This document shows, piece after piece, positions 51,074 to 64,000 of a stretch of DNA of 64,000 nucleotides. The translations under genes were made by a program, and so were the position numbers. Under the pieces are notes generated by a model. That model did no database searches. It was not told where the DNA came from and saw only the letters and a list, made by a program, of their open reading frames with translations. Origin of the DNA: Chloroflexota bacterium (GTDB taxonomy: Bacteria > Chloroflexota > Anaerolineae > Anaerolineales > Villigracilaceae); NCBI GenBank assembly GCA_021787595.1, contig JAJYLQ010000018.1:1-64000 (forward strand). Reading direction: 5' to 3'. How positions within the stretch are numbered: the first letter of the stretch is position 1; the number at the start of each line of letters is the position of its first letter.

Positions 51074-51110
51074 GGCTTTCCCGTTAAAAGCGGGAAAGCC
51101 TTATTTCTTT
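51074..51110 (+). terminator. Intrinsic terminator
   Basis: GGCTTTCCCG (51074-51083) pairs with CGGGAAAGCC (51091-51100) around TTAAAAG, followed by TTATTTCTTTT. No recognisable gene ends just upstream on the plus strand, so its client is unclear. It insulates the operon promoter region. Confidence 0.75.
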
Positions 51111-51490: not shown

Positions 51491-52681
51491 ATGATTGTTG
51501 CGGAAGCAGATCGCTCTTTCTACGATAGAGTCCTTCAGGCAACGCCCGAAGGCGAGCGATTGAGGCTTTGTCTGGAGTGCGGAAATTGCAGCGGGATATG
51601 TCCGTTCGGGTATCTGATGGCCTATCCCCCCAGCCGGATGATCGCCATGCTGCGCGCCGATCGCTTCGACAAATTGCTGGAAGCCGATTCGATCTGGATG
51701 TGTGTATCCTGTTACGCCTGCACCGCGGCCTGCCCATCGAAGATTCCACTGACGCCGGGACTGATGGCCAGTATCAAGGAAGAGCTGGTACTCGCTGGTA
51801 ATGTTCCCAACGAACTTCAAAATGCGCTGACGAATTCCCAACGCTACGGCAACCCGCTCGGCGAGTCGCCGCGCAAACGAGCGGACTGGGCCAACCGCAT
51901 CGCGCCAGAAGTCAAAATTATGGGGAAATTCAAACAGCCGGTGGACGTTCTCTGGTTCGTTGGAGATTACGCTTCCTATCATCCTCGTGTTCAATCAACG
52001 ACCAGGGCATTGGCCAGGATTTTGAACGCGCTCGGCGTGGATTTCGGGATTCTCGGCCCCGATGAATCGAGCGATGGCGACTCGCAAAGATTAGCCGGTG
52101 AGCACGGCTTATTCGAGATGCTGGCCGATAAGAATGGAAAAGCGTTTGGCAAATACAAGTTCAACCAGATTATCACCACCGACCCGCACGCTTACAACGC
52201 CATCAAGAACGAGTATCCAAAACTGGGCATTTCTTATCCCATCCAACATTACACCGAATTCCTGGCGGAACGACTCGATCAAATCAAACCAATGCTAAAG
52301 CGGGAGAGCAAAGCCAAAGTTACATATCATGATCCGTGTTATTTGGGCCGCGCCAACGGAGTGTTCGATCCGCCGCGTGCGCTGATAAAAGCCATCCCCG
52401 GCGTGACATTGGCAGAGATGCTGCACAATCACACGAACAGTCTGTGCTGCGGCGGTGGCGGCGGCGGAATGTGGCTGGACGGCTTCCAATGGGAAAAGGC
52501 GCATGTTCGTTTGTCGGAGTGGCGCGTGCGCGAAGCATTGGATACCAAAGCGGATATTCTGGCAGTCGCCTGCCCGTATGAAACGCCGCGTTTTGAGGAC
52601 GCCGCCAAAACGGTCGAGGGCGCCGCGCAACTCAAAGTAAAGGACATCGCTGAACTGTTGCTCGAAGCCATGGGAATCTAG
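51491..52681 (+). CDS. HdrD/GlpC-like Fe-S oxidoreductase (soluble)
   Basis: This 396-residue protein has two ferredoxin-type [4Fe-4S] motifs (CLECGNCSGICP near 28; CVSCYACTAACP near 73), then two CCG-like domains as in HdrD/GlpC. In the first CCG domain the usual cysteines are gone: FVGDYASY, DESSDGD and TTDPHAYN replace the FVGCTASY, CCGD and TCPHC pattern. In the second, DPCYLG and CCGGGGGG are kept but the last motif reads CPYE rather than CPxC. It heads the operon and probably passes electrons between EtfAB and the membrane protein at 54450, whose C-terminal half it resembles. Confidence 0.85.
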   Translation: MIVAEADRSFYDRVLQATPEGERLRLCLECGNCSGICPFGYLMAYPPSRMIAMLRADRFDKLLEADSIWMCVSCYACTAACPSKIPLTPGLMASIKEELVLAGNVPNELQNALTNSQRYGNPLGESPRKRADWANRIAPEVKIMGKFKQPVDVLWFVGDYASYHPRVQSTTRALARILNALGVDFGILGPDESSDGDSQRLAGEHGLFEMLADKNGKAFGKYKFNQIITTDPHAYNAIKNEYPKLGISYPIQHYTEFLAERLDQIKPMLKRESKAKVTYHDPCYLGRANGVFDPPRALIKAIPGVTLAEMLHNHTNSLCCGGGGGGMWLDGFQWEKAHVRLSEWRVREALDTKADILAVACPYETPRFEDAAKTVEGAAQLKVKDIAELLLEAMGI

Positions 52682-52692
52682 CGAGGTGAACG

Positions 52693-53454
52693 ATGAACAT
52701 CGTGGTTCTTGCCAAACTCGTCCCCGATCTGGTCGAAGAACTTACGATTGACGCAAATGGCAATGCGCTCGATTCGTCTTTTGCGCGTCTAATCATCAAC
52801 GAATTCGACGATCACGCCATCGAGCAGGGCATTCTATTAAAGGAACGCGGCGGAGGTTCGGTGACCATCATCGCACCTGATGCCGAGGGCGCGGACGATG
52901 TGCTTTTCACCGCAGCCGCCAAAGGCGCAGATCGTCTGATCAAAATCAAGGGCGATTTCAGCAACGTGAACAATCATGCTTTGGCGCGTGCATTCGCGAA
53001 AGTCGTCAGCGGCATCAAACCTGATCTGGTATTGACCGGCGTTCAAGCTCACAACGATTTGGATGGCGCATTAGGTCCACTGTTGGCTGAATTGCTGGAA
53101 ATGCCCTACATTGGTTATGTGTCTGCCGTCTCGATCAATGGTGATAAAGTCCTCATCAAAAAAGAATATCCCGGCGGCCTGCTTGCTGAAATGGATGTGC
53201 AGCTTCCGGCGATATTGGGAATCCAAGCCGCAGAAGAGCCGCCGCGTTATGTGGCAGTCAGCAAGGTTCGCCAGGCGATGAAGACCTCCAGCATCGAAGA
53301 GCAGGACGCATCGAACCTCGACCCGTGCGGCGGATCCGCCATCGGACGCATGTTCCAGCCTGAGGCCAGTTCACATGCGACAATGATCACTGGCAGTCCT
53401 GATGAGGTTGCCGAGAAACTCGTCGGCGTTTTCAAAGAACTGGGCATTGTGTGA
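52693..53454 (+). CDS. etfB: Electron transfer flavoprotein beta subunit
   Basis: This 253-residue EtfB starts MNIVVLAKLVPDLVEELTID and continues with the domain pattern FDDHAIEQGILLKERGGGSVTII, LVLTGVQAHNDLDGALGPLLAELLEMPYIGYVSAV and PAILGIQAAEEPPRYVAVSKVRQA. The AMP/FAD-contact loop reads GVQAHNDLDGALGP, not the DGDTxQVGP pattern I associate with electron-bifurcating ETFs, so a non-bifurcating role is more likely. It is 11 bases after the HdrD-like gene and 13 before etfA. Confidence 0.92.
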   Translation: MNIVVLAKLVPDLVEELTIDANGNALDSSFARLIINEFDDHAIEQGILLKERGGGSVTIIAPDAEGADDVLFTAAAKGADRLIKIKGDFSNVNNHALARAFAKVVSGIKPDLVLTGVQAHNDLDGALGPLLAELLEMPYIGYVSAVSINGDKVLIKKEYPGGLLAEMDVQLPAILGIQAAEEPPRYVAVSKVRQAMKTSSIEEQDASNLDPCGGSAIGRMFQPEASSHATMITGSPDEVAEKLVGVFKELGIV

Positions 53455-53467
53455 GAGGAGGCTTGAC

Positions 53468-54427
53468 ATGACTCAAGATATTTACATCGTCATTGAACAC
53501 CTCCGAGGGCAAGTCGCGGATATTTCCTATATCATGCTTGCCGCCGCGCGTGAACTGGCTCAAAGCGCAGGCGGAAACGTTATTGCTGTTTTGCTTGGGC
53601 ATAACGCAAAAGAATTAGCCGCGAACTTTGCTGCCGATCAAGTAATTTATCTCGATCATCCCGCGCTCGCGGATTTCACACCGGATGCCTATCAAAAAGC
53701 GTTGGCCGATTTGATCCAAAAGAATCAGCCGCGCGCGGTTCTGTTCGGCAGCACATCTATCGGCTCAGATCTAGCCAGCGTCCTTTCGATTCGACTTGAT
53801 TTGCCACTGGCAAGTTCATGCCGCAGCTTCACGAAAGACGGCAAATTCGTCAGCCAGATTTGCGGCGGCAAGATCATGGCGGAAGGCGCGTTGCCTTCCC
53901 CCACCGCGCTAGTCACGATGATCCCCGGCGGATACAAATCAGAAGAGGGAAAAAGCACACAGCCTCCTACGCTGACTCCGGCTGAAGTCCCGGCATTGGA
54001 CGCGTTGAGAGTCGCTTTGAAAAATTATGTCGAGCCGCAGGCGGGTGATGTGGATATTGCCAAAGAACCAATCCTGATCTCTGTTGGCCGAGGCATTCAA
54101 AACAAAGACAACATCGCGCTCGCCGAAGATTTAGCCACGGCACTCGGCGGAGTCGTAACGGGTTCGCGCCCAGTGATTGATCAAGCGTGGCTGCCATCCT
54201 CGCGCCTCGTTGGTAAGTCTGGCAAGCATGTCAAACCGAAAATTTATTTCACGCTTGGCATCAGCGGCGCGCCCGAACACGTCGAAGCCATTACCGACAG
54301 CGACACGATCATCGCCATCAACACTGATCCGAAGGCACCCATCTTCGACATCGCCAAATACGGCGTCGAAATGGATTTGTTCGATCTGGTCGAGGTGCTG
54401 ACCGAGAAAGTCAAACAGGCGAAATAA
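53468..54427 (+). CDS. etfA: Electron transfer flavoprotein alpha subunit
   Basis: This 319-residue EtfA binds FAD and, with EtfB, accepts electrons from acyl-CoA or other dehydrogenases. The C-terminal FAD domain is clear: ISVGRGIQNKDNIALAEDLATALGGVVTGSRPVIDQAWLP, VGKSGKHVKPKIYFTLGISGAPEH and TIIAINTDPKAPIFDIAKYGV. I chose the ATG at 53468, with GAGAGGAGG upstream; the frame extends into etfB without homology. It is followed within 22 bases by the membrane oxidoreductase. Confidence 0.94.
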   Translation: MTQDIYIVIEHLRGQVADISYIMLAAARELAQSAGGNVIAVLLGHNAKELAANFAADQVIYLDHPALADFTPDAYQKALADLIQKNQPRAVLFGSTSIGSDLASVLSIRLDLPLASSCRSFTKDGKFVSQICGGKIMAEGALPSPTALVTMIPGGYKSEEGKSTQPPTLTPAEVPALDALRVALKNYVEPQAGDVDIAKEPILISVGRGIQNKDNIALAEDLATALGGVVTGSRPVIDQAWLPSSRLVGKSGKHVKPKIYFTLGISGAPEHVEAITDSDTIIAINTDPKAPIFDIAKYGVEMDLFDLVEVLTEKVKQAK

Positions 54428-54449
54428 GTCTGGCAGGAAGCGAGAAGCC

Positions 54450-56426
54450 ATGCCGATCCGCGAAACGTTCTGGAACATCCCGCAATGGGCAGAAACCGCC
54501 CAATACGTTTTGGGATTCATCACGGCGGTTGTCTTCGTTTATGGCATCGTTCGCCGCGTGATGCGCTGGCGGCAGGGGCAGCCCGATAAACGTTTCGATC
54601 ACATCGGTGCGCGTCTGCGGACGCTGTTCACTCAGGCGATTTTGCAGCTGCGCGTGGCGAGCGAAGCCTACGCGGGCGTGATGCACCTCGCCATCTTTTG
54701 GGGCATCATCGCCCTGCTCATCGGCACCGCGCTCGCGACGCTGGATTGGGATGTGACGCATCTGTTCTTTGGATTCCAATTTTTGAAAGATGGATTTTAT
54801 ATCGGCTATGAATTGACACTTGATATCTTTGGACTGTTGCTGATGATTGGCTTAGGCATGGCGATCTATCGCCGCTTCATTCTCCGCCCGAAGCGGCTCC
54901 AGAACCCATGGCCGACTCTCACCCGCGACGACGCGTACGTACTCGGGATGCTGACCCTGATCGCCATCACGGGTTATCTCGTGGAGGGTTTGCGTATTGC
55001 GGTGACACAGCCATCCTGGGCGAATTGGTCGCCGGTTGGCAACGCGATTGCCGCGCTCTTTATTGCGACTGGTGATCCAACCAATCGCATTTTGCATCTC
55101 TCGTTGTGGTCATTTCATATTTTGATCGCCTTCACTCTTCTTGCCAGCCTGCCGTTCACAAAATTATTTCATATCGCCGCTGTGCCAACCAATATCTTCT
55201 TCCATTCGCTCACGCCAGCAGGGACATTATCGGCGCCGCGCTCTGCAGATAGTGTGGGCGTGAAAGCGTGGAAAGAATTCACGTGGAAACAAATCCTCGA
55301 TTTTGAATCCTGCACGCGCTGCGGGCGCTGCCAGGATGTTTGTCCCGCGTATGCCAGCACGCAAATTCTTTCGCCGCGCAATATGATGATCAAATTGGAA
55401 ACGCACATCTGGGAAAAAGCAAATGGACGTCAATTACACAGCGACGTGATTACGGCAGATGAATTATGGGGCTGCACCACCTGTCGCGCTTGCTCAGAAG
55501 TCTGCCCGGCGTTCATTGATCACTTGTCTTCATTTGTAGACATGCGCCGTTATCTGGTGGCGGAAGGACAAGTGGACGCGCAATTGCAAAAGGCATTGGC
55601 GAATTTGGGACGGTATGGCAATTCGTTTGGTCAATCCGAGCGAATGCGCGCCAAATGGACTCAGCCCATTACGTCAAAGATCAAAGATGCACGCCGCGAA
55701 GCCGTTGAATATTTGTGGTTCGTTGGCGATTACGCCTCATACAGTCCAACGCTGACAGAAATTACATCGAAGACCGCGCAAGTCTTCCAGAAAGCCGGAC
55801 TGGATTTCGGAATCTTATACGATGGCGAGCGCAACGCGGGCAACGATGTGCGCCGCGTGGGAGAAGAAGGTTTGTTTGAAACGCTGGTTGAGAAAAATGT
55901 CAGCGTGCTAGGCAAATGCTCTTACAAGAAGATAGTCACCACCGATCCGCATTCATACAACACAGTGAAGAATGAATATCCAAGATCGGAGACTTCGGAA
56001 GTCTTGCATTACACCGAATTGCTCGATCAATTGATCGCATCTGGCCAATTGAAATTCAACAAGAGACTTGGCTACAAAGTTACGTATCACGACCCATGTT
56101 ATTTAGGTCGTTATAACGGCGTGTACGATGCGCCGCGCAGAGTCATCGAGGCGACGGGATGTGAATTGGTCGAGATGCCGCGTCATGGTGACCGCGCGTT
56201 CTGCTGCGGCGCAGGCGGAGGACGGATTTGGATGAAGGAGGCTGAAGTCAAGGAACGACCGAGCGAAGCGCGCGTGCGCGAGGCGGTGAGTTTGGATGGA
56301 GTCAACACATTGGTTACCGCTTGTCCGAAAGATATCACGATGTTCCGCGACGCGGTGAAGACCACAGGCAACGAAGAACGCCTGGCAGTCAAGGATTTGA
56401 TCGAGCTGGTCTATGCGGCACTGTAA
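54450..56426 (+). CDS. Membrane ETF:quinone oxidoreductase-like protein (NarI-HdrD type)
   Basis: This 658-residue protein joins an N-terminal five- to six-helix NarI-like domain with candidate haem-ligand histidines (MHLAIFWGIIALLIGTAL, LHLSLWSFHILIAFTLLA) to two [4Fe-4S] motifs (CTRCGRCQDVCP near 288; CTTCRACSEVCP near 342) and two CCG domains. The first CCG domain is degenerate (FVGDYASY, GERNAGND, TTDPHSYN). The second keeps DPCYLG and CCGAGGG but ends CPKD. The architecture matches the ETF:(methyl)menaquinone oxidoreductases described in anaerobes that oxidise fatty or aromatic acids. It follows etfBA directly, so transfer from ETF to the quinone pool is likely. Confidence 0.88.
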   Translation: MPIRETFWNIPQWAETAQYVLGFITAVVFVYGIVRRVMRWRQGQPDKRFDHIGARLRTLFTQAILQLRVASEAYAGVMHLAIFWGIIALLIGTALATLDWDVTHLFFGFQFLKDGFYIGYELTLDIFGLLLMIGLGMAIYRRFILRPKRLQNPWPTLTRDDAYVLGMLTLIAITGYLVEGLRIAVTQPSWANWSPVGNAIAALFIATGDPTNRILHLSLWSFHILIAFTLLASLPFTKLFHIAAVPTNIFFHSLTPAGTLSAPRSADSVGVKAWKEFTWKQILDFESCTRCGRCQDVCPAYASTQILSPRNMMIKLETHIWEKANGRQLHSDVITADELWGCTTCRACSEVCPAFIDHLSSFVDMRRYLVAEGQVDAQLQKALANLGRYGNSFGQSERMRAKWTQPITSKIKDARREAVEYLWFVGDYASYSPTLTEITSKTAQVFQKAGLDFGILYDGERNAGNDVRRVGEEGLFETLVEKNVSVLGKCSYKKIVTTDPHSYNTVKNEYPRSETSEVLHYTELLDQLIASGQLKFNKRLGYKVTYHDPCYLGRYNGVYDAPRRVIEATGCELVEMPRHGDRAFCCGAGGGRIWMKEAEVKERPSEARVREAVSLDGVNTLVTACPKDITMFRDAVKTTGNEERLAVKDLIELVYAAL

Positions 56427-56467
56427 TGATTTTGCACCGCGGAAAAACAAAACTCCGCAGGAATAAC

Positions 56468-58501
56468 ATGCAAAGCACATTCGGAAGTTTGGCAGGTTGG
56501 TTCAAAGGTTTCAATACGAGGTTTTCGCATGGCATTGACACGTTCATGCGGACGGGCTTCCGCATCCCGATTGCCACCAAACTCATCCTCAGCTTTCTGG
56601 CAGTCATTATTATCGTCAGCACGATTTTCACCATTGTGGGAATTCGCCTGATCAACGACCGCATCCTGACGGAAGCCCAGCAAATGGTGGATCTCGATCT
56701 GAACTCCGCCAGAGGAATCTACGAAGGCAGATTGAATCACATCCATGACGTTGTTCATCTGACAGCAGATAGGCTTTTTCTCGCAGAAGACCTGACCAGC
56801 GGAAATGTCATGGACGCCGCCGATGAGTTGACCAAAGTAAAAGAGGCCGAAGGCCTTGATGTCTTGAACGTCACCGACGCGTACGGCCATGTCTTATTAC
56901 GGACCGGTAATTTAGGAGTTTATGGGGACAGCCAGATCCACAACGAGCTTATCTCTACGGCGATTACTCAAAAGGCGCCTGCAGCCGCCACGATCATCGT
57001 ATCTGCGGAAGATTTGAGCAAAGAATCTCGACTCCTTGCCCAGCAAGCCGACATCAAATTCATCAATACTCCCATGGCAAGAATTACAGGTGAAACCGAA
57101 GAGACCAGCGGCATGATGCTGGCGGCGGCGGCTCCGATCTTCGACCGCAACGATAAGTTGATCGGGATCTTATACGGCGGAACCTTACTGAACAGGAATT
57201 ATGGGCTGGTTGACGAGATAAAGCAAACCGTCTTTCAGGGCATGAAATATAACGACAAGGATATTGGAACGGCGACAATCTTTCAGGACGATGTAGGGAT
57301 TTCGACCAATGTCCTGAATGGGGATGATTCCCGTGCGATCGGCACGCGCATCATGGAGAGTGTATACAACCAGGTTGTCCTCAACGGCCAGCCTTATGTG
57401 GGACGGGCCTATGTAGTGAATAATTGGTACATCACAGCGTATGAGCCAATCAGAGACCTGCACAACGAAACAATAGGGATTTTGTACGTTGGCATTCTCG
57501 AACAGCCATATACAGATATTGAGCGACAGACCATCTTTGCCTTTCTGGCAATTGCGTTTATCGGCGCGCTTGGCTCGATGATTTTTGCCTACTTTATTTC
57601 GCAAAGGATTTCCGTGCCCCTCGGGAAACTGGTGTCGGCTTCCAGGGAAATTGCGGATGGCAACTTGAATATCAGGGTCGAGATCAAATCAGGCGATGAA
57701 CTGGGCAAGCTGGCGCATACTTTCAACAAAATGGCGTCGGCTTTAAAGGAGCGGGATGATGAATTGAAGGAGTTTGCCAAACGAAAAATCATGGAATCAG
57801 AGAGGCTGGCGCTCATTGGACAGCTCTCAGCCAATGTGGCTCATGAATTGAATAACCCGCTGCAAGGAATCGTTACCTATTCTCACTTGCTTCTCGAAGT
57901 CATGCCAAGTGACCAGGACGAGACCTGTAGAAGCAATCTTGAGAAGATCACGATCCAGGCCAATCGCTGCCGCGACATCATCCGCGGCCTGCTGGACTTT
58001 TCGCGGCAGAGAAAACCGGACAAAACGTTATGCGATGTCAATGAGGTGCTGAGAGGCTGTGTTTCCCTGCTGGAAAAGCAAGCCTTGTTCCATAACATCC
58101 AAATTATCTGGGGCCTGGAGCCTGCGCTGCCGGAGGCCGTCATTGACCCGTCACAAGTCGAGCGTGTGTTCATGAACATCATCATCAACGCCGCTGAAGC
58201 CATGGAAGGCAACGGGCGATTGACACTCACAACCCGATTCGAGCCCGACGATCAATTCATCGAACTGCAATTTGCAAATACCGGCCCGGCAATTGCGAAA
58301 GACAACCTGGACAAGATTTTCGATCCTTTCTTTACCACCAAGGATACCGGGCACGGGGTCGGCTTGGGACTGGCTATCAGTTATGGGATTGTCAAAGAAC
58401 ATAGAGGCACGATCACGGTGGAAAGCGAGCCCGGCAAAGGAACGACTTTCATTGTCAGATTACCAGTGACTTCTAATGGAAACGGTGCAAGCCATGGATA
58501 A
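56468..58501 (+). CDS. Cache-HAMP sensor histidine kinase
   Basis: This 677-residue kinase starts at the ATG after CAGGAATAAC. It has a membrane helix (LILSFLAVIIIVSTIFTIVG), a large extracellular Cache-type sensor (about 60-315, with GMMLAAAAPIFDRNDKLIGILYGG and GQPYVGRAYVVNNWYITAYEPIRD), and a second helix (IFAFLAIAFIGALGSMIFAYFI). HAMP (SVPLGKLVSASREIADGNLNIRV), HisKA with H-box LSANVAHELNNPLQGIVTYSH and HATPase (NIIINAAEAMEGNG, GHGVGLGLAISYGIV) follow. It is placed between the ETF and Hdr genes and overlaps the next signalling gene. Confidence 0.92.
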   Translation: MQSTFGSLAGWFKGFNTRFSHGIDTFMRTGFRIPIATKLILSFLAVIIIVSTIFTIVGIRLINDRILTEAQQMVDLDLNSARGIYEGRLNHIHDVVHLTADRLFLAEDLTSGNVMDAADELTKVKEAEGLDVLNVTDAYGHVLLRTGNLGVYGDSQIHNELISTAITQKAPAAATIIVSAEDLSKESRLLAQQADIKFINTPMARITGETEETSGMMLAAAAPIFDRNDKLIGILYGGTLLNRNYGLVDEIKQTVFQGMKYNDKDIGTATIFQDDVGISTNVLNGDDSRAIGTRIMESVYNQVVLNGQPYVGRAYVVNNWYITAYEPIRDLHNETIGILYVGILEQPYTDIERQTIFAFLAIAFIGALGSMIFAYFISQRISVPLGKLVSASREIADGNLNIRVEIKSGDELGKLAHTFNKMASALKERDDELKEFAKRKIMESERLALIGQLSANVAHELNNPLQGIVTYSHLLLEVMPSDQDETCRSNLEKITIQANRCRDIIRGLLDFSRQRKPDKTLCDVNEVLRGCVSLLEKQALFHNIQIIWGLEPALPEAVIDPSQVERVFMNIIINAAEAMEGNGRLTLTTRFEPDDQFIELQFANTGPAIAKDNLDKIFDPFFTTKDTGHGVGLGLAISYGIVKEHRGTITVESEPGKGTTFIVRLPVTSNGNGASHG

Positions 58502-59639
58502 TAGATCGAAGATACTCATCATTGACGATGAGGAGGTGGTTCTGGATTCCTGCTCCCAAATCTTGAGGGGAGGGAACTGCCAGGTCGCTACCGCCATGAG
58601 CGGCGACTCGGGATTGAAACTCGTCAAAGAATTCCAGCCCGATCTCGTTTACGTGGACCTCAAGATGCCCGGTATTTCAGGCTTCGATGTCATCGGACGA
58701 ATCCGCGAGCTCGACCCGACGATCGTCAGCATTGTCATCACGGGATACGCCACGGTGAGTTCGGCTGTCGAAGCGATGAAGAACGGCGCGTATGACTTCC
58801 TGCCCAAGCCGTTCACACCGGACGAATTCCGTTTGATCACGCGTCGAGGGCTCGATAAAAGAAAGTTGACGCTGGAAACCATCGCCCTGCGAAAAGAAAA
58901 GGAAATGCTGAGGGAGAATTTTGCCGCCATTGTTTCGCACGAACTGAAAGCGCCTCTCGGCGCGGTGCAGCAAAATCTGTATTTTTTGTCAGACGAATTA
59001 TCGGCTCAACTCACCAATGAGCAAAGGAAGCGCCTCGAGCGGATGAAGGTTAACATCAGCGATTTGATCAACCTCATTCAAACCTGGCTGCGGGTGCTGT
59101 CCGTTGATGTCTCAAAAATTCGAGATGACTTCAAACCCGTCTCTATGCCATCCGTGGTTTCAAAAGCCATCGAGGCTGTCCAGCCTCACGCGGTTCGCAA
59201 GGACATCGAAATCGTTCCTTCGATCGGCGAATCGCTCCGCCCCGTAAACGGAGATGAAGGCACGCTGGTGGAGACTGTCATCAACATTCTTGGCAACGCG
59301 ATCAAGTACTCACGAGCGGCAAGCCAGGTACACATCCATGCTGAAGAAGAAGGAAACAACGTATTGATCTCCGTGACGGACACCGGTCCCGGCATCTCCA
59401 AAGAAGACCTTCCCTATATTTTCAACGACTTCTATTCTGGCAAAGCGGCTCCGGCTTCGGAACGCGGCAGCGGGATCGGACTGGCAGTCGCCCGCCGCAT
59501 CGTCGAGGCGCATAACGGAACGATTTCAGTCGAAAGTGAATTGGGCAAAGGAAGCACTTTTGTAATTCGTTTGCCGAACATCAATCCTGAGTCGCACAAT
59601 GAGCCTGCGTTGGAAACAAATGGTTCAGCAAAATCGTAG
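58494..59639 (+). CDS. REC-histidine kinase hybrid
   Basis: This 381-residue cytoplasmic protein has an N-terminal receiver domain (KILIIDDEEVVLDSC, phosphoacceptor in LVYVDLKMPGISG, VITGYAT, PKPFTP). A coiled linker is followed by HisKA (NFAAIVSHELKAPLGAVQQNLYFL) and HATPase (INILGNAIKYSRAAS, DTGPGISKEDLPYIF, GSGIGLAVARRIVEAH). The REC-first order suggests that phosphate from the upstream kinase controls this kinase. The ATG at 58494 overlaps the upstream stop; an ATG at 58476 in the same frame is also possible. No DNA-binding output is present. Confidence 0.9.
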   Translation: MDNRSKILIIDDEEVVLDSCSQILRGGNCQVATAMSGDSGLKLVKEFQPDLVYVDLKMPGISGFDVIGRIRELDPTIVSIVITGYATVSSAVEAMKNGAYDFLPKPFTPDEFRLITRRGLDKRKLTLETIALRKEKEMLRENFAAIVSHELKAPLGAVQQNLYFLSDELSAQLTNEQRKRLERMKVNISDLINLIQTWLRVLSVDVSKIRDDFKPVSMPSVVSKAIEAVQPHAVRKDIEIVPSIGESLRPVNGDEGTLVETVINILGNAIKYSRAASQVHIHAEEEGNNVLISVTDTGPGISKEDLPYIFNDFYSGKAAPASERGSGIGLAVARRIVEAHNGTISVESELGKGSTFVIRLPNINPESHNEPALETNGSAKS

Positions 59640-59696
59640 CCCTGCTTCCGGCGGCGGCTTGAGCGTTAGTCTAAAATCTTAATATGAAGGAGAACT

Positions 59697-60119
59697 ATGA
59701 GCGCACAGATAATGATGATTGATGATGATCCCGATTTTGTGGCGGGGATCAAATCCATCCTCGAAAAGGCCAGCTACAAAGTGGACGCGGCTTACAACCC
59801 GAAGGATGGATTCCAAAGTTTGCAAAGCAAACATTATGACCTGCTCCTGCTCGACATCATGATGGGCAGAGGCGCAGAGGGCGTGGCTTTGGCGCGGAAG
59901 ATCCGAAAGGATCCGAAGCTAAAGGAAATGCCCGTCCTGATCATCACGGGGCTGCGGGAACAGATCGCTTTCCTCTTCCCGGGCCAATCGGTCCATCCGC
60001 ATTTCGTCGAGACCGACGAGCTGGTCGAGAAGCCGGTGGAGCCGAAGCTCCTGCTGGAAAAAGTGGGCACTCTCTTGAAGCTGGCAGAAGAGAGAAAGTC
60101 CAAAACCCCGGTGCGATAG
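59697..60119 (+). CDS. Stand-alone receiver-domain response regulator
   Basis: This 140-residue REC-only protein has MIDDDPDF, LLLLDIMMGRGAEG (phosphoacceptor Asp), LIITGLREQ and a divergent C-terminal FPGQSVHPHFVETDELVEKPVEP with the conserved lysine. GAAGGAGAACT precedes the ATG. With no output domain it must act by contact with another protein, plausibly an enzyme of the operon. It is 11 bases upstream of hdrC. Confidence 0.88.
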   Translation: MSAQIMMIDDDPDFVAGIKSILEKASYKVDAAYNPKDGFQSLQSKHYDLLLLDIMMGRGAEGVALARKIRKDPKLKEMPVLIITGLREQIAFLFPGQSVHPHFVETDELVEKPVEPKLLLEKVGTLLKLAEERKSKTPVR

Positions 60120-60130
60120 GAGGATCATTC

Positions 60131-60694
60131 ATGGCAGCAGAACTTTCTTTCAGCGATGAAATCGCCAACATGATGTACGCCTCGCACGGCAATCCGATCC
60201 GGGAATGCATCCAATGCGGAACTTGCTCGGGAACCTGCCCGGCGGCGGAGTTCATGGATCATACGCCGCGTCAAATCATCGGCATGATCCGCGCCGATCT
60301 CAAGGATGAAGTGCTGGCCAGCAACACCTATTGGTCGTGCGCTTCCTGCTATCACTGCACGGTGCGCTGTCCGGCAGGGATCGATATCGCCGATATGATG
60401 TACGCGCTGAAACGTTATTCGATGTGGAAGAAGAGCTATCAAGAGGGCCTGATCGGGCCTGCCTTCTCTGAAAGTTTCGTGAAGATGATCGCCGGTTCCG
60501 GTCGTTCCTTCGAGCCGCAACTGGCGCCCGCTTATCTTTTCAAGTACGGGCCTCGAGGTTTGATTCAAGAAGCGCAGATGGCCACAAGCCTGGTGTTCAA
60601 AGGCAGAATGCCTTTGCTTCCGAGGAAGATCAAGGGGCTGGAGAACTTCCAGCGCATGGTGAGACGAATCATCCCGATTGGAGAGTCGTCATGA
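60131..60694 (+). CDS. hdrC: Heterodisulfide reductase subunit C-like
   Basis: This 187-residue HdrC carries two [4Fe-4S] motifs, CIQCGTCSGTCPAAEFMD and CASCYHCTVRCPAGIDIADMM, and relays electrons between HdrA and HdrB. N- and C-terminal helices match the family and length is typical. The ATG follows GATAGGAGGATCATTC. The stop overlaps the hdrB start (ATGA), indicating a stoichiometric complex. Confidence 0.92.
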   Translation: MAAELSFSDEIANMMYASHGNPIRECIQCGTCSGTCPAAEFMDHTPRQIIGMIRADLKDEVLASNTYWSCASCYHCTVRCPAGIDIADMMYALKRYSMWKKSYQEGLIGPAFSESFVKMIAGSGRSFEPQLAPAYLFKYGPRGLIQEAQMATSLVFKGRMPLLPRKIKGLENFQRMVRRIIPIGESS

Positions 60695-61566
60695 AACAGT
60701 ATGCATACTATCCCGGCTGCTCTCTCGAGAGTCTGGCTGAAAGCTACAACGTCTCGACGCTCGAAGTGGCGCGCGGGCTTGGGCTGGACTTGAAAGAAAT
60801 CGAAGATTGGAATTGCTGCGGCGCAACCGCGTACTTCCCGGTGGACGAGCTGCTGGCCTATACACTCGTCGCGCGCAATCTGGCAATTGCCGAAAAAGAC
60901 GGCGCGAGCGATTTCGTCACTCCATGCAGCGCCTGCTACAAGAACGCTTACTTCACCAACGCGTATCTCAAAAGGGACGCGGATTTGGCGGATCACATCA
61001 ATTACGCCCTGGAAGCCGACCACCTGCACATCAACGGGACATTGAGGGTCCGTCATCTCATCGAAGTCATCCTTGAAGATGTGGGGCTGGAGGAAGTCAA
61101 GAAGAACGTCACGCATCCGCTCAAGGACTTGAAAGTCGCTCCATATTACGGATGCCAGATGCTTCGTCCAAGAAAAGATCACGAGAACGTCGAGAACCCG
61201 CAATTCTTCGAGCAGTTGTTAGCGGCTCTCGGCGCGGACCCGGTACCGTATCCAAGCAAAACGCGTTGCTGCGGCGGATCGCTGATCATCACGAATCGAA
61301 AAGCGGCGCTCGATATGGTCCGCAAACTTTTGGAAGACGCCGTGAACCATAAAGCCGAGGTGATCGCCACGACCTGCCCCATGTGCAACATCAATCTGGA
61401 AGTGTATCAAGCGCAGGTCAATCAGGAGTTTGGCACGCAATTTTCGATTCCCGTCATGTATTTCACCCAACTCATGGGCGTGGCCATGGGCCTCAAACCG
61501 AAGAGTTTGGGAATTGGAAAAGAAATGGTCCCCGGAGTGCCGCTGCTTAACTTCGCTCAAAGTTGA
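60691..61566 (+). CDS. hdrB: Heterodisulfide reductase subunit B-like
   Basis: This 291-residue HdrB has two complete CCG domains. The first has YYPGCSLE, WNCCGATAYFP and TPCSACYKN; the second has YYGCQMLRP, TRCCGGSLI and TTCPMCNIN. All cysteines for the two non-cubane [4Fe-4S] clusters are therefore present. In methanogens this subunit reduces CoM-S-S-CoB. In bacteria lacking those thiols the substrate is unknown, possibly another disulfide or a protein partner. Confidence 0.94.
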   Translation: MKQYAYYPGCSLESLAESYNVSTLEVARGLGLDLKEIEDWNCCGATAYFPVDELLAYTLVARNLAIAEKDGASDFVTPCSACYKNAYFTNAYLKRDADLADHINYALEADHLHINGTLRVRHLIEVILEDVGLEEVKKNVTHPLKDLKVAPYYGCQMLRPRKDHENVENPQFFEQLLAALGADPVPYPSKTRCCGGSLIITNRKAALDMVRKLLEDAVNHKAEVIATTCPMCNINLEVYQAQVNQEFGTQFSIPVMYFTQLMGVAMGLKPKSLGIGKEMVPGVPLLNFAQS

Positions 61567-61583
61567 AAACAGGAGAGAAACCT

Positions 61584-63602
61584 ATGACTGAAAGAATTGG
61601 CGTTTATGTTTGTCACTGCGGCACGAACATCGCGGGTGTGGTGGATGTCGCAGAGGTCAGCCGATGGGCAGGAAAACATCTCGCAGCGCAAGGCGTGGTG
61701 GTTTCACGCGACTACAAGTTCATGTGCTCCAGCCTCGGCCAGGAACTGATCCAGAAAGATATCAAAGAACTGGGCTTGACACGCGTCGTGGTCGCGGCTT
61801 GTTCACCGCATCTGCACGAGAAGACGTTCCGCAATGCCAGCAAAGGTGCGGGATTAAATCCGTATTTGACTGAAATGGTTTCCATCCGCGAACAGGATTC
61901 GTGGGTGCACACCGACAAAGCCGCCGCGACCGATAAAGCCAAAGCCATCCTCGCGGGAGGCGTGGCGCGCGTGGCTCACAACACGGAACTCGAACCATTG
62001 CGCGTGCCGATCCATCCGGCTACGATGATCGTCGGCGCAGGAATCGCTGGAATTCAAGCCGCGCTCGAAATCGCCGACGCGGGCTATCACGTTTATCTGG
62101 TCGAGCGCGAACCATCCATCGGTGGACACATGGCACAGTTCGATAAAACCTTCCCCACACTGGATTGTGCGGCTTGCATTCTGACTCCAAAGATGTTCGA
62201 GGTCGGCTCGCATCCAAACATCACCCTGCTCACATGGAGCAATGTTGAGAAGGTGGACGGCTACATTGGGAATTTTACGGTGACCATCTGCAAGAAAGCC
62301 CGGTATGTCAACACGGATACCTGCACCGGCTGCGGCATCTGCTGGGAAAAATGCCCCTGGAAAGTCGTGGATAAAGTCTTCGAGGCTGGCATGGGCAGCC
62401 GCAAGGCCATTTATACGCCGTTCCCGCAAGCTGTGCCAAAATATCCAGTCATTGACAGAGAAAACTGCGCCTACTTCAAGAACGGCAAGTGCAAGGCGTG
62501 CCAGATCTTCTGCCCCACCGAACCCAACTCGATTGACTTCAATCAAAAGGATGAGATGCTGGAAGTCCAGGTTGGCAACATCATCCTGGCCACCGGATAC
62601 CAACTATTCGATGCGACGCGCATCCCTCAATACGGCTACGGCAGGCTGCCGAACGTGTTCACCAGCCTGGAATTCGAGCGGATGTGCAACGCTTCGGGTC
62701 CGACCGAGGGCAAGATCGTCTTGCGCGATAAGAAGACCACGCCGAAGACGGTGGTCATCGTTCACTGCGTTGGCAGCCGCGATGAAAATTACAACAAGTA
62801 TTGCTCCAGCATTTGTTGCATGCAGAGCTTGAAGTATGCCCATCTGGTGATGGAGCGCACGGGCGCGGAAGTCTATAACTGTTACATTGATATCCGCACT
62901 CCCTTCAAGGATTACGAGGAGTTCTATAAGCGCGTGCTGGAAGAAGGCGGCAATTTCATCCGCGGCAAGGTAGCGGAGATCACCGATGTGGCGCGCACGC
63001 CCAATGAAGAAGGCAAATTGATCGTGCAAGTCGAAGATACGCTGATCGGCAAACAACGCCGCATCCCAACCGACATGGTCATCCTTTCTGCAGGCATCGA
63101 GCCGCGTCATGACGCCAAAGAAGTTGGCAAACAATTCGGGATTTCCTGCGGCGCCAGCGGTTGGTATATTGAAAGACACCCAAAGCTGGACCCGGTGGCA
63201 ACGATGACGGAGGGCGTTTTCATAGCCGGATGTGTGCAAGGCCCGAAAGACATCCCCGCCAGCGTGGCGCAGGGTGCGGCGGCATCGGCGCGCGTGCTCG
63301 GAAAGATCCAGCAGAAGGAAGTCGCACTCGAACCGGTGCGCGCCTCGATCAACGAGAATCAATGCTCGGGCTGCCGCATCTGCAACAACCTGTGTCCGTT
63401 CAACGCCATCGCCTTCCACGAAGATCGAATGGTATCGGAAGTCAACCCGGCACTGTGCCAGGGCTGCGGAACGTGCGTTGCCGCCTGCCCGGCGGGCGCG
63501 ATCAGCGGAACCGGATTCTCCAACGAACAGATCCTCTCGCAAATCGAAGGTCTGTTGTTGGTGAATGTGGATGGAAATTTAACGGAGGCGGTCCCAGGTT
63601 AG
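61584..63602 (+). CDS. hdrA: Heterodisulfide reductase subunit A-like flavoprotein
   Basis: This 672-residue FAD protein is the core of Hdr complexes, where electron bifurcation or confurcation occurs. Visible are the N-terminal VYVCHCGTNIAG, the FAD motif IVGAGIAGIQAALEIADAG, the Cys-rich TLDCAACILTPKM, and ferredoxin motifs CTGCGICWEKCPWK and CKACQIFCP in the inserted domain. A second flavin-binding part (GVFIAGCVQGPKDIP) and two C-terminal ferredoxin motifs (CSGCRICNNLCPFNA and CQGCGTCVAACPAGA) follow. I chose the ATG at 61584, after CAGGAGAGAAA. Length and cluster content match canonical HdrA. Confidence 0.94.
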   Translation: MTERIGVYVCHCGTNIAGVVDVAEVSRWAGKHLAAQGVVVSRDYKFMCSSLGQELIQKDIKELGLTRVVVAACSPHLHEKTFRNASKGAGLNPYLTEMVSIREQDSWVHTDKAAATDKAKAILAGGVARVAHNTELEPLRVPIHPATMIVGAGIAGIQAALEIADAGYHVYLVEREPSIGGHMAQFDKTFPTLDCAACILTPKMFEVGSHPNITLLTWSNVEKVDGYIGNFTVTICKKARYVNTDTCTGCGICWEKCPWKVVDKVFEAGMGSRKAIYTPFPQAVPKYPVIDRENCAYFKNGKCKACQIFCPTEPNSIDFNQKDEMLEVQVGNIILATGYQLFDATRIPQYGYGRLPNVFTSLEFERMCNASGPTEGKIVLRDKKTTPKTVVIVHCVGSRDENYNKYCSSICCMQSLKYAHLVMERTGAEVYNCYIDIRTPFKDYEEFYKRVLEEGGNFIRGKVAEITDVARTPNEEGKLIVQVEDTLIGKQRRIPTDMVILSAGIEPRHDAKEVGKQFGISCGASGWYIERHPKLDPVATMTEGVFIAGCVQGPKDIPASVAQGAAASARVLGKIQQKEVALEPVRASINENQCSGCRICNNLCPFNAIAFHEDRMVSEVNPALCQGCGTCVAACPAGAISGTGFSNEQILSQIEGLLLVNVDGNLTEAVPG

Positions 63603-63613
63603 GAAGAAAAGAC

Positions 63614-63895
63614 ATGTTGATATTTTACGTTTTGAACCTGGCTCTTTACCTGCTGTTCGTCTTTCTTGGTTATTGGATATCAGGAAAGATTAAGCCTCCA
63701 CAAACGACCCAAACATGGATTCTCTGGGTCATACTGGTTATCTTCGCAGGTGGAGTATGTGTCAGTGGTTATGCTGTGGATATCAAAAACGCCGTTGTAC
63801 TGCACGGTAATGACATGCTTCAAGCTATCGGCATTGGCATTCTGATTGGCTTTGTGATTGCCAAATTCAAGCAAGCCAAGCCAGCTACGTTCTGA
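63614..63895 (+). CDS. Small three-helix membrane protein in hdr operon
   Basis: This is an unrecognised 93-residue protein with three hydrophobic helices (IFYVLNLALYLLFVFLGYWI, WILWVILVIFAGGVCVSGYAV, MLQAIGIGILIGFVIAKF) and a basic tail. It starts at an ATG after AGGAAGAAAAG, 11 bases after hdrA and 35 bases before mvhD. Soluble Hdr-Mvh systems normally have no membrane subunit here, so this could anchor or couple the complex to the membrane. Confidence 0.78.
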   Translation: MLIFYVLNLALYLLFVFLGYWISGKIKPPQTTQTWILWVILVIFAGGVCVSGYAVDIKNAVVLHGNDMLQAIGIGILIGFVIAKFKQAKPATF

Positions 63896-63930
63896 TGTTG
63901 AAAGCGTAGCGGCATAAAGGAGACTCAATA

Positions 63931-64000
63931 ATGAGCAATGAAAAATTTGAACCCGTGATCATTGGCTTTACCTGCAACTGGTGCAGTTACCGCGCTGCGG
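63931..64000 (+). CDS. mvhD: MvhD-type hydrogenase iron-sulfur subunit (partial, runs off end)
   Basis: Only the first 23 codons lie in the window. They read MSNEKFEPVIIGFTCNWCSY followed by RAA, matching the conserved N-terminus of MvhD/FrhD-type delta subunits (GFxCNWCxYxxAD). These bind a [2Fe-2S] cluster and link HdrA to a hydrogenase or formate/NADH dehydrogenase module. AAAGGAGA lies 8 bases upstream. What follows outside the window decides the electron donor. Confidence 0.85.
   Translation, partial: MSNEKFEPVIIGFTCNWCSYRAA

Follow-up and report, generated by a model that had tools for sequence, protein, structure and literature searches.

A hydrogenase-linked HdrA operon of Chloroflexota with a probable ETF arm and a sensor relay that may control the enzyme directly

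The operon presented here was found in an uncultured Chloroflexota bacterium, at the end of the window (the whole stretch of 64,000 nucleotides that was analysed) and in the sequence following it. It consists of 15 genes, all on the plus strand, which encode an HdrA-centred complex with an [NiFe] hydrogenase, an ETF with two HdrD-like proteins, and a relay of two kinases and a single-domain receiver protein (REC). On gene content and homology, it is somewhat probable that the products form an H2-linked bifurcating or confurcating machine centred on HdrA, which has two arms at high potential and is controlled, through protein contact, by a Cache kinase of its own. The sensor relay may control this electron-splitting enzyme directly, because relatives of the REC recur beside similar enzymes and are sometimes fused into them.

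In the proposed mechanism, MvhA-MvhG-MvhD would exchange electrons with H2, and the FAD of HdrA would split or join electrons between ferredoxin and a higher-potential acceptor, as its homologues suggest. The first arm, HdrDsol-EtfBA-NarI/HdrD, would link HdrA to menaquinone, and the second, HdrC-HdrB, in which both CCG sites are kept, would serve a disulfide-type or other acceptor. The membrane Cache kinase (HK) would sense a small extracellular molecule and, as the intact residues suggest, phosphate would pass from HK to the REC-HK protein and then to the REC, which lacks helix alpha-4 in its model. The REC would dock on Hdr/Mvh proteins and set the choice of arm or the flux. In an anaerobe the likely reaction would be either H2 oxidation with menaquinone driving the reduction of ferredoxin, or the production of H2 with electrons from ferredoxin and menaquinol/ETF.

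Extent of the operon and the hydrogenase-HdrA core

The 14 gene junctions range from -26 to +57 nt, the maximal gap being 57 nt. A sequence-only reading of the window had proposed a single operon of 12 named genes. All 12 are located on the plus strand and contain the stated domains, with corrected starts for etfA and HK, and the single operon is supported; internal promoter-like and terminator-like sites are not in excess. In a consensus scan of both strands, which is a crude test, 7 promoter-like sites were found against a mean of 9.7 in shuffles, and 17 terminator-like sites against 15.8. The longest terminator-like stem found, a hairpin of 12 bp at 51074-51100 on the plus strand, lies 5' of the first gene and is a possible left boundary. 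On the other side, a convergent gene begins at 67515, 3' of the hycI-type protease.

The gene mvhD (FlpD, 63931-64392) crosses the window end at 64000. It is followed outside the window by mvhG (64389-65399), mvhA (65401-66864) and a hycI-type maturation protease (66896-67417), so that the operon extends to 67417 and the partner of MvhD, for which the earlier reading had pointed past 64000, is an [NiFe] hydrogenase. The Ni-ligand motifs RICGVC and DPCFGCATH were both read in this hydrogenase part. The product of hdrA (61584-63602, with a possible alternative start at TTG 61563) is complete with FAD and Fe-S domains, and its residues 4-658 of 672 align with the solved HdrA 8rvu at 675.7 bits. 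Its best family is HdrA2, at 809.9 of 1100 bits and under the curated cut-off. HdrB also aligns with a solved HdrB. The Hdr-Mvh core of the earlier reading is supported. By its components the product appears to be an HdrABC-MvhADG-type complex, which we take to be of the group 3c [NiFe] class, and bifurcation is predicted from homology.

The order of 14 genes is repeated in three genomes of the same family (G164, G061 and G148), hdrC and mvhD of G061 having been found by a separate search, and the arrangement is therefore not a matter of chance. The exception is the gene of a 93-residue membrane protein (63614-63895), for which the loci searched, including the 30 other loci of the cassette described below, gave no homologue. 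It was rejected as a component of the system and, judged by these loci, is a local feature. The kinase genes are kept at this site in the three genomes of the family and also elsewhere in the Chloroflexota, as expected from the earlier reading. Six genomes of the same family have an HdrCBA-Mvh locus at which neither the ETF set nor the kinase-HdrCB block is present. Some plain HdrCBA regions also carry unrelated kinase or response-regulator genes. In TA06 (G301), only weak homologues of the ETF and NarI-HdrD genes were found, which speaks against the proposed machine.

The proposed ETF and membrane HdrD arm

The operon begins with HdrDsol (51491-52681), a soluble HdrD-like Fe-S protein with two 4Fe-4S motifs and two CCG domains, of which only the second keeps its conserved Cys residues. 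It is followed by etfB (52693-53454) and etfA (53468-54427), the latter with an FAD-binding domain; the start of etfA was set at 53468, with AGGAGG immediately 5'. A residue-by-residue comparison with two bifurcating chains, 5ol2 and 6fah, gives DLDGALG in EtfB at the position of their GDTAQVG. A bifurcating EtfAB was rejected on the absence of this segment, as compared with these two chains.

The membrane protein NarI-HdrD (54450-56426) has the architecture of EtfD/EMO/HdrF. Its closest solved chain is 9ojn, which we take to be the EtfD of PMC13083937, an ETF:menaquinone link. His79 and His241 are present in 36 of 36 rows and align with His78 and His241 of EtfD, which are given as heme ligands in the available part of that paper (PMC13083937). 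Only the second CCG domain keeps conserved Cys residues. Those of the first are lost, with one Cys kept in the last C-x-x-C, and NarI-HdrD is therefore not expected to carry an EtfD/EMO-type Fe-S cluster at each of the two CCG domains, D1 and D2.

The sequence-only reading had assigned the ETF half to acyl-CoA oxidation. Such a branch would lead to menaquinone and be balanced against an independent HdrABC-Mvh complex; the likeness to 9ojn agrees with it, as does hdrF3 of Desulfobacterium autotrophicum, located with etfBA according to the part of the source available (PMC2702500). However, no acyl-CoA dehydrogenase gene occurs in the operon, the genome carries two further ETF-alpha genes, and the ETF set is tied to HdrA-Mvh also at loci lacking HdrB and the kinases. 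In the regions of NarI-HdrD homologues, our own excluded, HdrA directly follows NarI-HdrD in 11 of 17, and in all six of these 11 that are not cut by a contig end HdrDsol-EtfB-EtfA precede it. None of the 11 matches HdrB, HK, REC-HK or REC at E 1e-10. The ETF set and the HdrA-Mvh core have correlated identity profiles, with a mean rho of 0.70 (0.90 for HdrDsol-HdrA). The acyl-CoA assignment in its stated form is thus unsupported and improbable. Since the ETF set co-varies strongly with HdrA-Mvh and occurs elsewhere without the kinase-HdrCB block, HdrDsol-EtfBA-NarI/HdrD appears to be a built-in arm of the machine.

In two of the 11 regions (L087 and L093), kinase or response-regulator genes of other, dissimilar kinds lie close by, with 22-32% identity. 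A different contig of the same genome, C63, carries ETF, NarI-HdrD, GcvH-like and lipoate-ligase genes together.

The kinase-HdrCB cassette and the receiver protein

The sensor histidine kinase HK (56468-58501, starting at ATG 56468 and not at the upstream TTG) has two transmembrane segments, a Cache_3/Cache_2-type sensor, HAMP, HisKA and HATPase domains. The N-terminal part of the sensor folds like CitA (Z 18.3, 124 residues, rmsd 1.6), and its C-terminal part matches 8py1 and 8py0 by profile with E-values of 1.7e-7 and 7.2e-6. The latter two are presumably formate-binding Cache receptors. The likeness to them and to the CitA/DcuS sensor domains is one of fold and profile alone, and the Chloroflexota Cache domain belongs to a kinase, not to a chemoreceptor. 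A small molecule outside the cell could be the ligand, and a carboxylate is conceivable.

The next gene encodes REC-HK (58476-59639), a REC-HisKA-HATPase protein by domain matches, with Asp61 and His155, in which hydropathy indicates no transmembrane segment. It is followed by the REC (59697-60119; domain match), by hdrC (60131-60694) with two 4Fe-4S motifs, and by hdrB (60691-61566) with two complete CCG motifs. The phosphotransfer residues are present without exception: H460 in 27 rows of HK (numbered from 56465) and H155 and D61 in 30 rows of REC-HK. D9, D10, D53, T84 and K112 of the REC are conserved in 35 rows, among the matches listed. Conservation was counted in columns at least 85% filled. 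The ten Cys residues of HdrB, which form two full CCG motifs, and the eight of HdrC are each kept in 27 of 27 cassette rows among the matches listed.

These five genes form a cassette present in at least 31 distinct loci of several phyla, as labelled, with several arrangements relative to other genes. Among the matches listed, REC-HK lies directly 5' of REC in all 30 cassette loci with sequence there, and HdrC and HdrB lie 3' of REC in 30 of 30; the cassette of L127 is without HK. This order, together with the control RECs described below, rules against chance co-location. Locus L128, which shares HdrB and HdrA rows with L036, was left out of the 31 loci and of the co-variation set and was kept in the row counts for the HdrB clade, HdrA changes and residue conservation. 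Loci L130-L132 (REC 52-55%) are outside the 31 loci and inside the 35 REC rows. Natural HdrC-HdrB fusions were considered and rejected, as tblastn shows HdrC, HdrB or MvhD as separate genes in L036, L106, L116, L122, L115, L089 and L093.

The cassette HdrB proteins form one clade apart from plain Chloroflexota HdrB, and their HdrA partners need 6 changes, a conflict that fits a travelling cassette. However, the mean rho inside the cassette is 0.47, against 0.45 with the ETF genes and 0.48 with the core genes, in a set where some gene counts are too low (for example, 27 HdrC) due to overlapping genes dropped in ORF calling. A tightly co-evolving travelling unit was rejected, the inner identity correlations being no higher than the outer, and for this reason only physical linkage is claimed. 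The grouping in the earlier reading accordingly stands as to one operon and changes in its parts: the tight block comprises the kinases, REC, HdrC and HdrB, and the ETF/HdrD-HdrA set also occurs in its absence.

The kinases have HdrC-HdrB, rather than HdrA, as their constant neighbour. This fact, and the lack of a transmembrane segment in REC-HK, would suit a reverse flow, in which HdrC-HdrB is a thiol/disulfide or redox sensor informing a relay that controls something else. But a pure sensor would not need both full CCG motifs, which HdrB keeps in 27 rows, and the extracytoplasmic Cache domain already supplies an input; we regard reverse flow as very improbable.

In the REC model, helix alpha-4 is absent and a conserved FPG...HP loop, predicted at a pLDDT of only 52-72, takes its place. 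We presume that the alpha-4-less class is the FAT GUY family, to which the REC is likened by the absent helix in the model only. Among the REC matches listed, all remaining loci (L133-L181) represent 49 distant relatives, of which 35 are near hydrogenase, formate dehydrogenase or Hdr-type genes, as compared with 1 of 20 control RECs (Fisher p 3e-7); the other 14 are not near such enzymes within the sequence covered. A relative counted as near when a gene at 80 bits or more to the reference set lay within five called genes. As this set also contains NuoF/HydB- and Fer4_22-type proteins, a near case does not in every instance amount to proof of a hydrogenase or formate dehydrogenase. The controls were hand-picked among the genome REC matches listed (six with a short frame and fourteen with a longer one, most of them probably DNA-binding regulators), with several regions cut by contig ends and a gene list slightly wider than for the 49 relatives. 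The one control that scored as near, L201, adjoins a REC that matches the window REC best.

A receiver that has no output domain can also work on partners located far away. The relay might thus share the operon for co-expression only, with the phosphorylated REC acting on an unlinked regulator or on chemotaxis; the genome has 75 matches to the receiver domain PF00072, and in its co-variation the cassette is no closer to the core than to the ETF genes. Against this stand the neighbourhoods of the 35 relatives, REC-HydC fusions in two MAGs, and a receiver domain inside HdrA in one MAG (L166), although this receiver is closer to the REC of REC-HK than to the single REC. In addition, in L130 and L131 the REC is found between mvhD and mvhG, and HK, REC-HK and the HdrCB block are absent within the sequence covered. 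Co-expression alone is rather unlikely. The scan of the 15 operon genes gave no HTH domain, in agreement with the absence of a DNA-binding output in the earlier reading, and the output by protein contact proposed there is favoured by the fusions and neighbourhoods.

A broader proposal is put forward tentatively, as one that may well prove wrong: receiver-domain proteins could serve as genuine regulatory subunits in electron-bifurcating enzymes and in H2/formate enzymes. A membrane kinase sensing small acids would set the phosphorylation of the alpha-4-less REC and switch between the menaquinone/ETF and HdrBC arms within seconds, without transcription. The same could hold, across several phyla, for HydABC, for formate dehydrogenases and for group-3b-like [NiFe] hydrogenases.

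We know of no settled answer as to how electrons are steered through bifurcating enzymes in near-equilibrium anaerobes, and the regulation of these enzymes is mostly looked for in transcription or in the amounts of substrate. If true, a relay of kinases with the enzyme as its last target would add a new layer of control. HdrA-Mvh would also gain a possible quinone branch via ETF and HdrD, an H2/ferredoxin/menaquinone route in uncultured Chloroflexota. The REC fusions make the idea of direct control testable on small soluble proteins.

Comparison with known systems

The operon can be compared with EtfD/EMO/HdrF as described in the available parts of the sources (9ojn; PMC13083937, PMC2702500). 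Shared features are the NarI-type membrane part with two aligned His residues, two 4Fe-4S motifs, a CCG domain and a place next to etfBA. In contrast to EtfD, the Chloroflexota NarI-HdrD lacks an equivalent of one of EtfD's two clusters, the Cys residues of the first CCG domain being lost, and is tied to HdrA-Mvh with no acyl-CoA dehydrogenase gene alongside.

Signalling genes at hdr loci, as in our operon, occur in two other cases, according to the parts of the sources available. In D. autotrophicum, the legend of Fig. 4 labels genes at the hdr loci as response regulator, histidine kinase and CheY-like (PMC2702500), and in a marine Chloroflexi HdrABC-MvhD-MetVF cluster a putative phoBR pair flanks metF (PMC5736913). 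There they appear as labels or a remark, whereas the conserved kinase-HdrCB cassette, the REC family and the fusions are not described in those parts. The portions of the open-licence literature seen likewise gave no description of a kinase-HdrCB cassette or of a REC family tied to bifurcating enzymes. An ETF associated with an Hdr-like complex is found also in the Thermomicrobium roseum hdrABC-etfAB-tusA-lipoate cluster, related in the available text to putative sulfur oxidation with lipoate-binding proteins (PMC6776052); no sHdr-type lipoate-binding (GcvH-like) protein is encoded in our operon.

The HdrABC-MvhAGD complex of hydrogenotrophic methanogens (5odc, 8rvu) has in common with the Chloroflexota operon a full-length HdrA, MvhD, MvhG and MvhA, an HdrC with two 4Fe-4S motifs and an HdrB with two CCG sites. 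To these components the Chloroflexota operon adds the ETF/HdrD/NarI-HdrD arm and the kinase relay.

Operon content and conservation of gene order

The gene and domain calls bear out the gene list of the sequence-only reading. The operon lies on the forward strand of contig C34, of which the window covers positions 1-64000, in a genome of 4.08 Mb. It begins at 51491 and runs beyond the window to 67417; downstream of mvhD come mvhG, mvhA and a gene for a HycI-type maturation protease. The partner of MvhD, which that reading had placed beyond 64000, is thus a [NiFe] hydrogenase. Intergenic distances are -26 to +57 nt. Promoter- or terminator-like consensus sites, which might have split the Etf half from the Hdr half, are no more frequent in the operon than in shuffled sequences.

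HdrB was searched in 298 genomes of the class and matched in 148, at 65% identity or more only in the own genome and three of the same family (G164, G061 and G148). These four share the order HdrDsol (soluble HdrD-like protein)-EtfB-EtfA-NarI/HdrD (membrane protein)-HK (Cache sensor histidine kinase)-REC/HK-REC (single-domain receiver)-HdrC-HdrB-HdrA-MvhD-MvhG-MvhA-HycI. The kinase genes are conserved at this site in the three relatives. The first four genes are called here the ETF set, HK to HdrB the cassette, and HdrA with MvhDGA the core.

Forty regions (L035-L074) were taken around HdrB homologues, 37 from other genomes, including six from the same family. Genes for HdrC and HdrB, and in most cases for HdrA and Mvh proteins, are present in these 37. 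Their HdrB does not exceed 50% (tblastn), and they gave no match to EtfB, EtfA, NarI-HdrD or REC at E 1e-10. G289, of the same genus, shares 90% identity in MvhG and 93% in MvhA, against just 45% in HdrB; from these identities, the upstream part was probably exchanged.

Of the 298 genomes of the class, 271 have a NarI-HdrD homologue of some kind. Among 17 non-own regions with better matches, HdrA directly follows NarI-HdrD in 11. HdrDsol-EtfB-EtfA precedes NarI-HdrD in six of these 11, the other five starting at a contig end inside or just before NarI-HdrD; Mvh genes lie downstream in nine, and none of the 11 matched HdrB, HK, REC-HK or REC at E 1e-10. By gene order, the operon appears to be built from two blocks, the ETF set with HdrA-Mvh, and HK-REC/HK-REC-HdrC-HdrB.

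The own genome has a second, distant Hdr-Mvh cluster (C27:1-10993), HdrC-HdrB-HdrA (1532 aa)-MvhD-MvhG-MvhA-HycI. At another locus (C63:164000-182054), an HdrD-EtfBA-NarI/HdrD set, in which a DDE transposase separates HdrD from EtfB, is accompanied by a lipoate ligase and two GcvH-like proteins.

Spread and history of the kinase-HdrCB cassette

GTDB contigs were scanned with a REC alignment, together with the family genomes; this yielded at least 31 distinct cassette loci in which REC reaches 66% or above. Among the matches listed, REC-HK is directly upstream of REC in all 30 loci with sequence there, HdrC and HdrB are downstream in 30/30, HK before REC-HK is whole in 27/29 (partial in L111, absent in L127), and 24/31 stretches also carry NarI-HdrD; the record titles include Chloroflexota, Verrucomicrobia, Armatimonadota, TA06 and Bacteroidetes, of which the Bacteroidetes label may reflect a binning error. 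EtfBA-NarI/HdrD modules are present in 6/7 genomes titled outside Chloroflexota. Depending on the locus, the cassette lies between NarI-HdrD and HdrA, after HdrA (L126, where a molybdopterin oxidoreductase resembling formate dehydrogenase follows), between HdrDsol and EtfB (L129), before EtfB (L106), between MvhG and MvhA (L116) or after MvhG (L121).

In a quick tree search, a branch with SH-aLRT 99 separates cassette HdrB (27 rows, 26 distinct) from 38 others. On the HdrA tree, the 23 rows from cassette operons require six changes, five of them forced by well-supported branches, which suggests repeated joining of the cassette to HdrA-Mvh cores, or its repeated loss. Identities correlate at 0.70 between ETF set and core, 0.84 within the core and 0.80 within the ETF set. 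Within the cassette the value is just 0.47, which counts against its tight coherence.

Stand-alone cyclic-nucleotide-binding proteins of about 150 aa directly follow mvhA/hycI in 23/40 of the regions L035-L074 (blastp; for example L037:16881-17339). They also occur in L087, L089, L090, L091 and L096, and between NarI-HdrD and HK or REC-HK in L108 (2586-3059), L115 and L127; the window operon has none. Three checked in Pfam have PF00027 and no HTH. They are possibly another protein-level regulator of these hydrogenases.

Signalling proteins and their enzyme neighbours

Among residues present, no exception was found at REC D9, D10, D11, D53, T84 and K112 (35 rows), REC-HK H155 and D61 (30 rows) or HK H460 (27 rows). 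All cassette rows have HdrB with both CCG motifs and HdrC with eight Cys. In both HdrDsol and NarI-HdrD the eight ferredoxin-type Cys are retained, but of the CCG motifs only the second, with one Cys at its end.

In the model of the extracytoplasmic domain of HK (pLDDT 90.6), the N-terminal part resembles CitA/DcuS (Z 18.3). The only PDB profile matches of the domain's C-terminal part at E 0.01 are the formate-binding receptors 8py1 (1.7e-7) and 8py0 (7.2e-6); the fold is common to many other Cache receptors. A small carboxylate would be a plausible guess for the ligand, and formate would suit an H2/formate enzyme.

REC has an ordinary receiver fold (Z about 20); after REC itself, the closest protein of the own genome matches at 36%, along part of its length. 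In the model (pLDDT 85) the alpha-4 helix is absent and residues 91-107 form a loop, with F94-P95-G96 and D107 invariant and H100-P101 nearly so. The REC gene of planctomycete relatives (52-55%) separates mvhD from mvhG in L130 and L131, and in L132 it follows mvhD at a contig end. The HdrA-MvhD-REC-MvhG-MvhA operons of L130 and L131 also hold NuoF/NfnB-like and DRTGG genes, with a CBS-HATPase gene in L130 and a HATPase gene in L131.

Among the matches listed, 35/49 other relatives (28-40% identity, L133-L181) have a hydrogenase-, formate dehydrogenase- or Hdr-type gene no more than five genes away, against 1/20 control RECs of the class (Fisher p 3.2e-7), and the rate drops with similarity to REC, from 15/18 (L133-L150) to 5/13 (L169-L181). 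The neighbours, with Pfam run on samples, are [NiFe] sets with REC and REC/HK, [FeFe] HydABC or formate dehydrogenase-like sets. The [NiFe] sets are presumably group 3b. They stand beside REC, usually also REC-HK, in L145, L148-L150, L153, L156-L159, L177, L180 and L181 (records titled Chloroflexota, Planctomycetota/Phycisphaerales and Aminicenantes), and comprise Fer4_22, a protein of about 280 aa, MvhG-like, MvhA-like and often HycI.

In two Omnitrophota MAGs, REC and a thioredoxin-like [2Fe-2S] domain (HydC-type) form one fusion protein, encoded next to HydB- and HydA-like genes; in a third case (G310) the two are separate neighbours. In a MAG titled Proteobacteria (L166:1377-4799), an HdrA of 1140 aa contains a receiver domain (residues 192-301) inserted between the ferredoxin-type segment and the flavin segment, with two kinases and a REC downstream. 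Such fusions are the best evidence that REC may contact the enzyme.

Proposed mechanism and known systems

Both HdrA-Mvh and EtfD, the ETF:menaquinone link protein, have known chemistry. In the proposed mechanism, HdrA-Mvh would bifurcate with a menaquinone arm through HdrDsol, ETF and NarI-HdrD, the second would be a controllable HdrBC arm, and phospho-REC may act on the complex. Both electron exchange between HdrA-Mvh and the ETF/NarI-HdrD arm here and its direction are presumed.

No description of the cassette was found in the open-licence literature searched. MvhA was noted in Chloroflexi by Poudel et al. (2018), the main text of which mentions neither histidine kinase nor response regulator (PMC6085437). 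Response regulator, histidine kinase and CheY-like genes were labelled near hdr loci of Desulfobacterium autotrophicum in 2009 (PMC2702500), and in marine Chloroflexi the metF gene of an HdrABC-MvhD-MetVF cluster has a putative phoBR pair at its flank (PMC5736913). Kinase domains occur in Hydrogenedentota [FeFe]-hydrogenases encoded with bifurcating ones (PMC11406978), and ETF with Hdr-like genes was already known in Thermomicrobium roseum (PMC6776052).

His79 and His241 of NarI-HdrD, present in 36/36 rows, align with the heme ligands of the solved structure 9ojn, which we take to be EtfD of the ETF-menaquinone study. EtfD connects ETF with menaquinone by means of a heme b, which sits between two His, and a pair of unusual clusters (PMC13083937); its heme-ligand His are matched by these two residues of the window protein.
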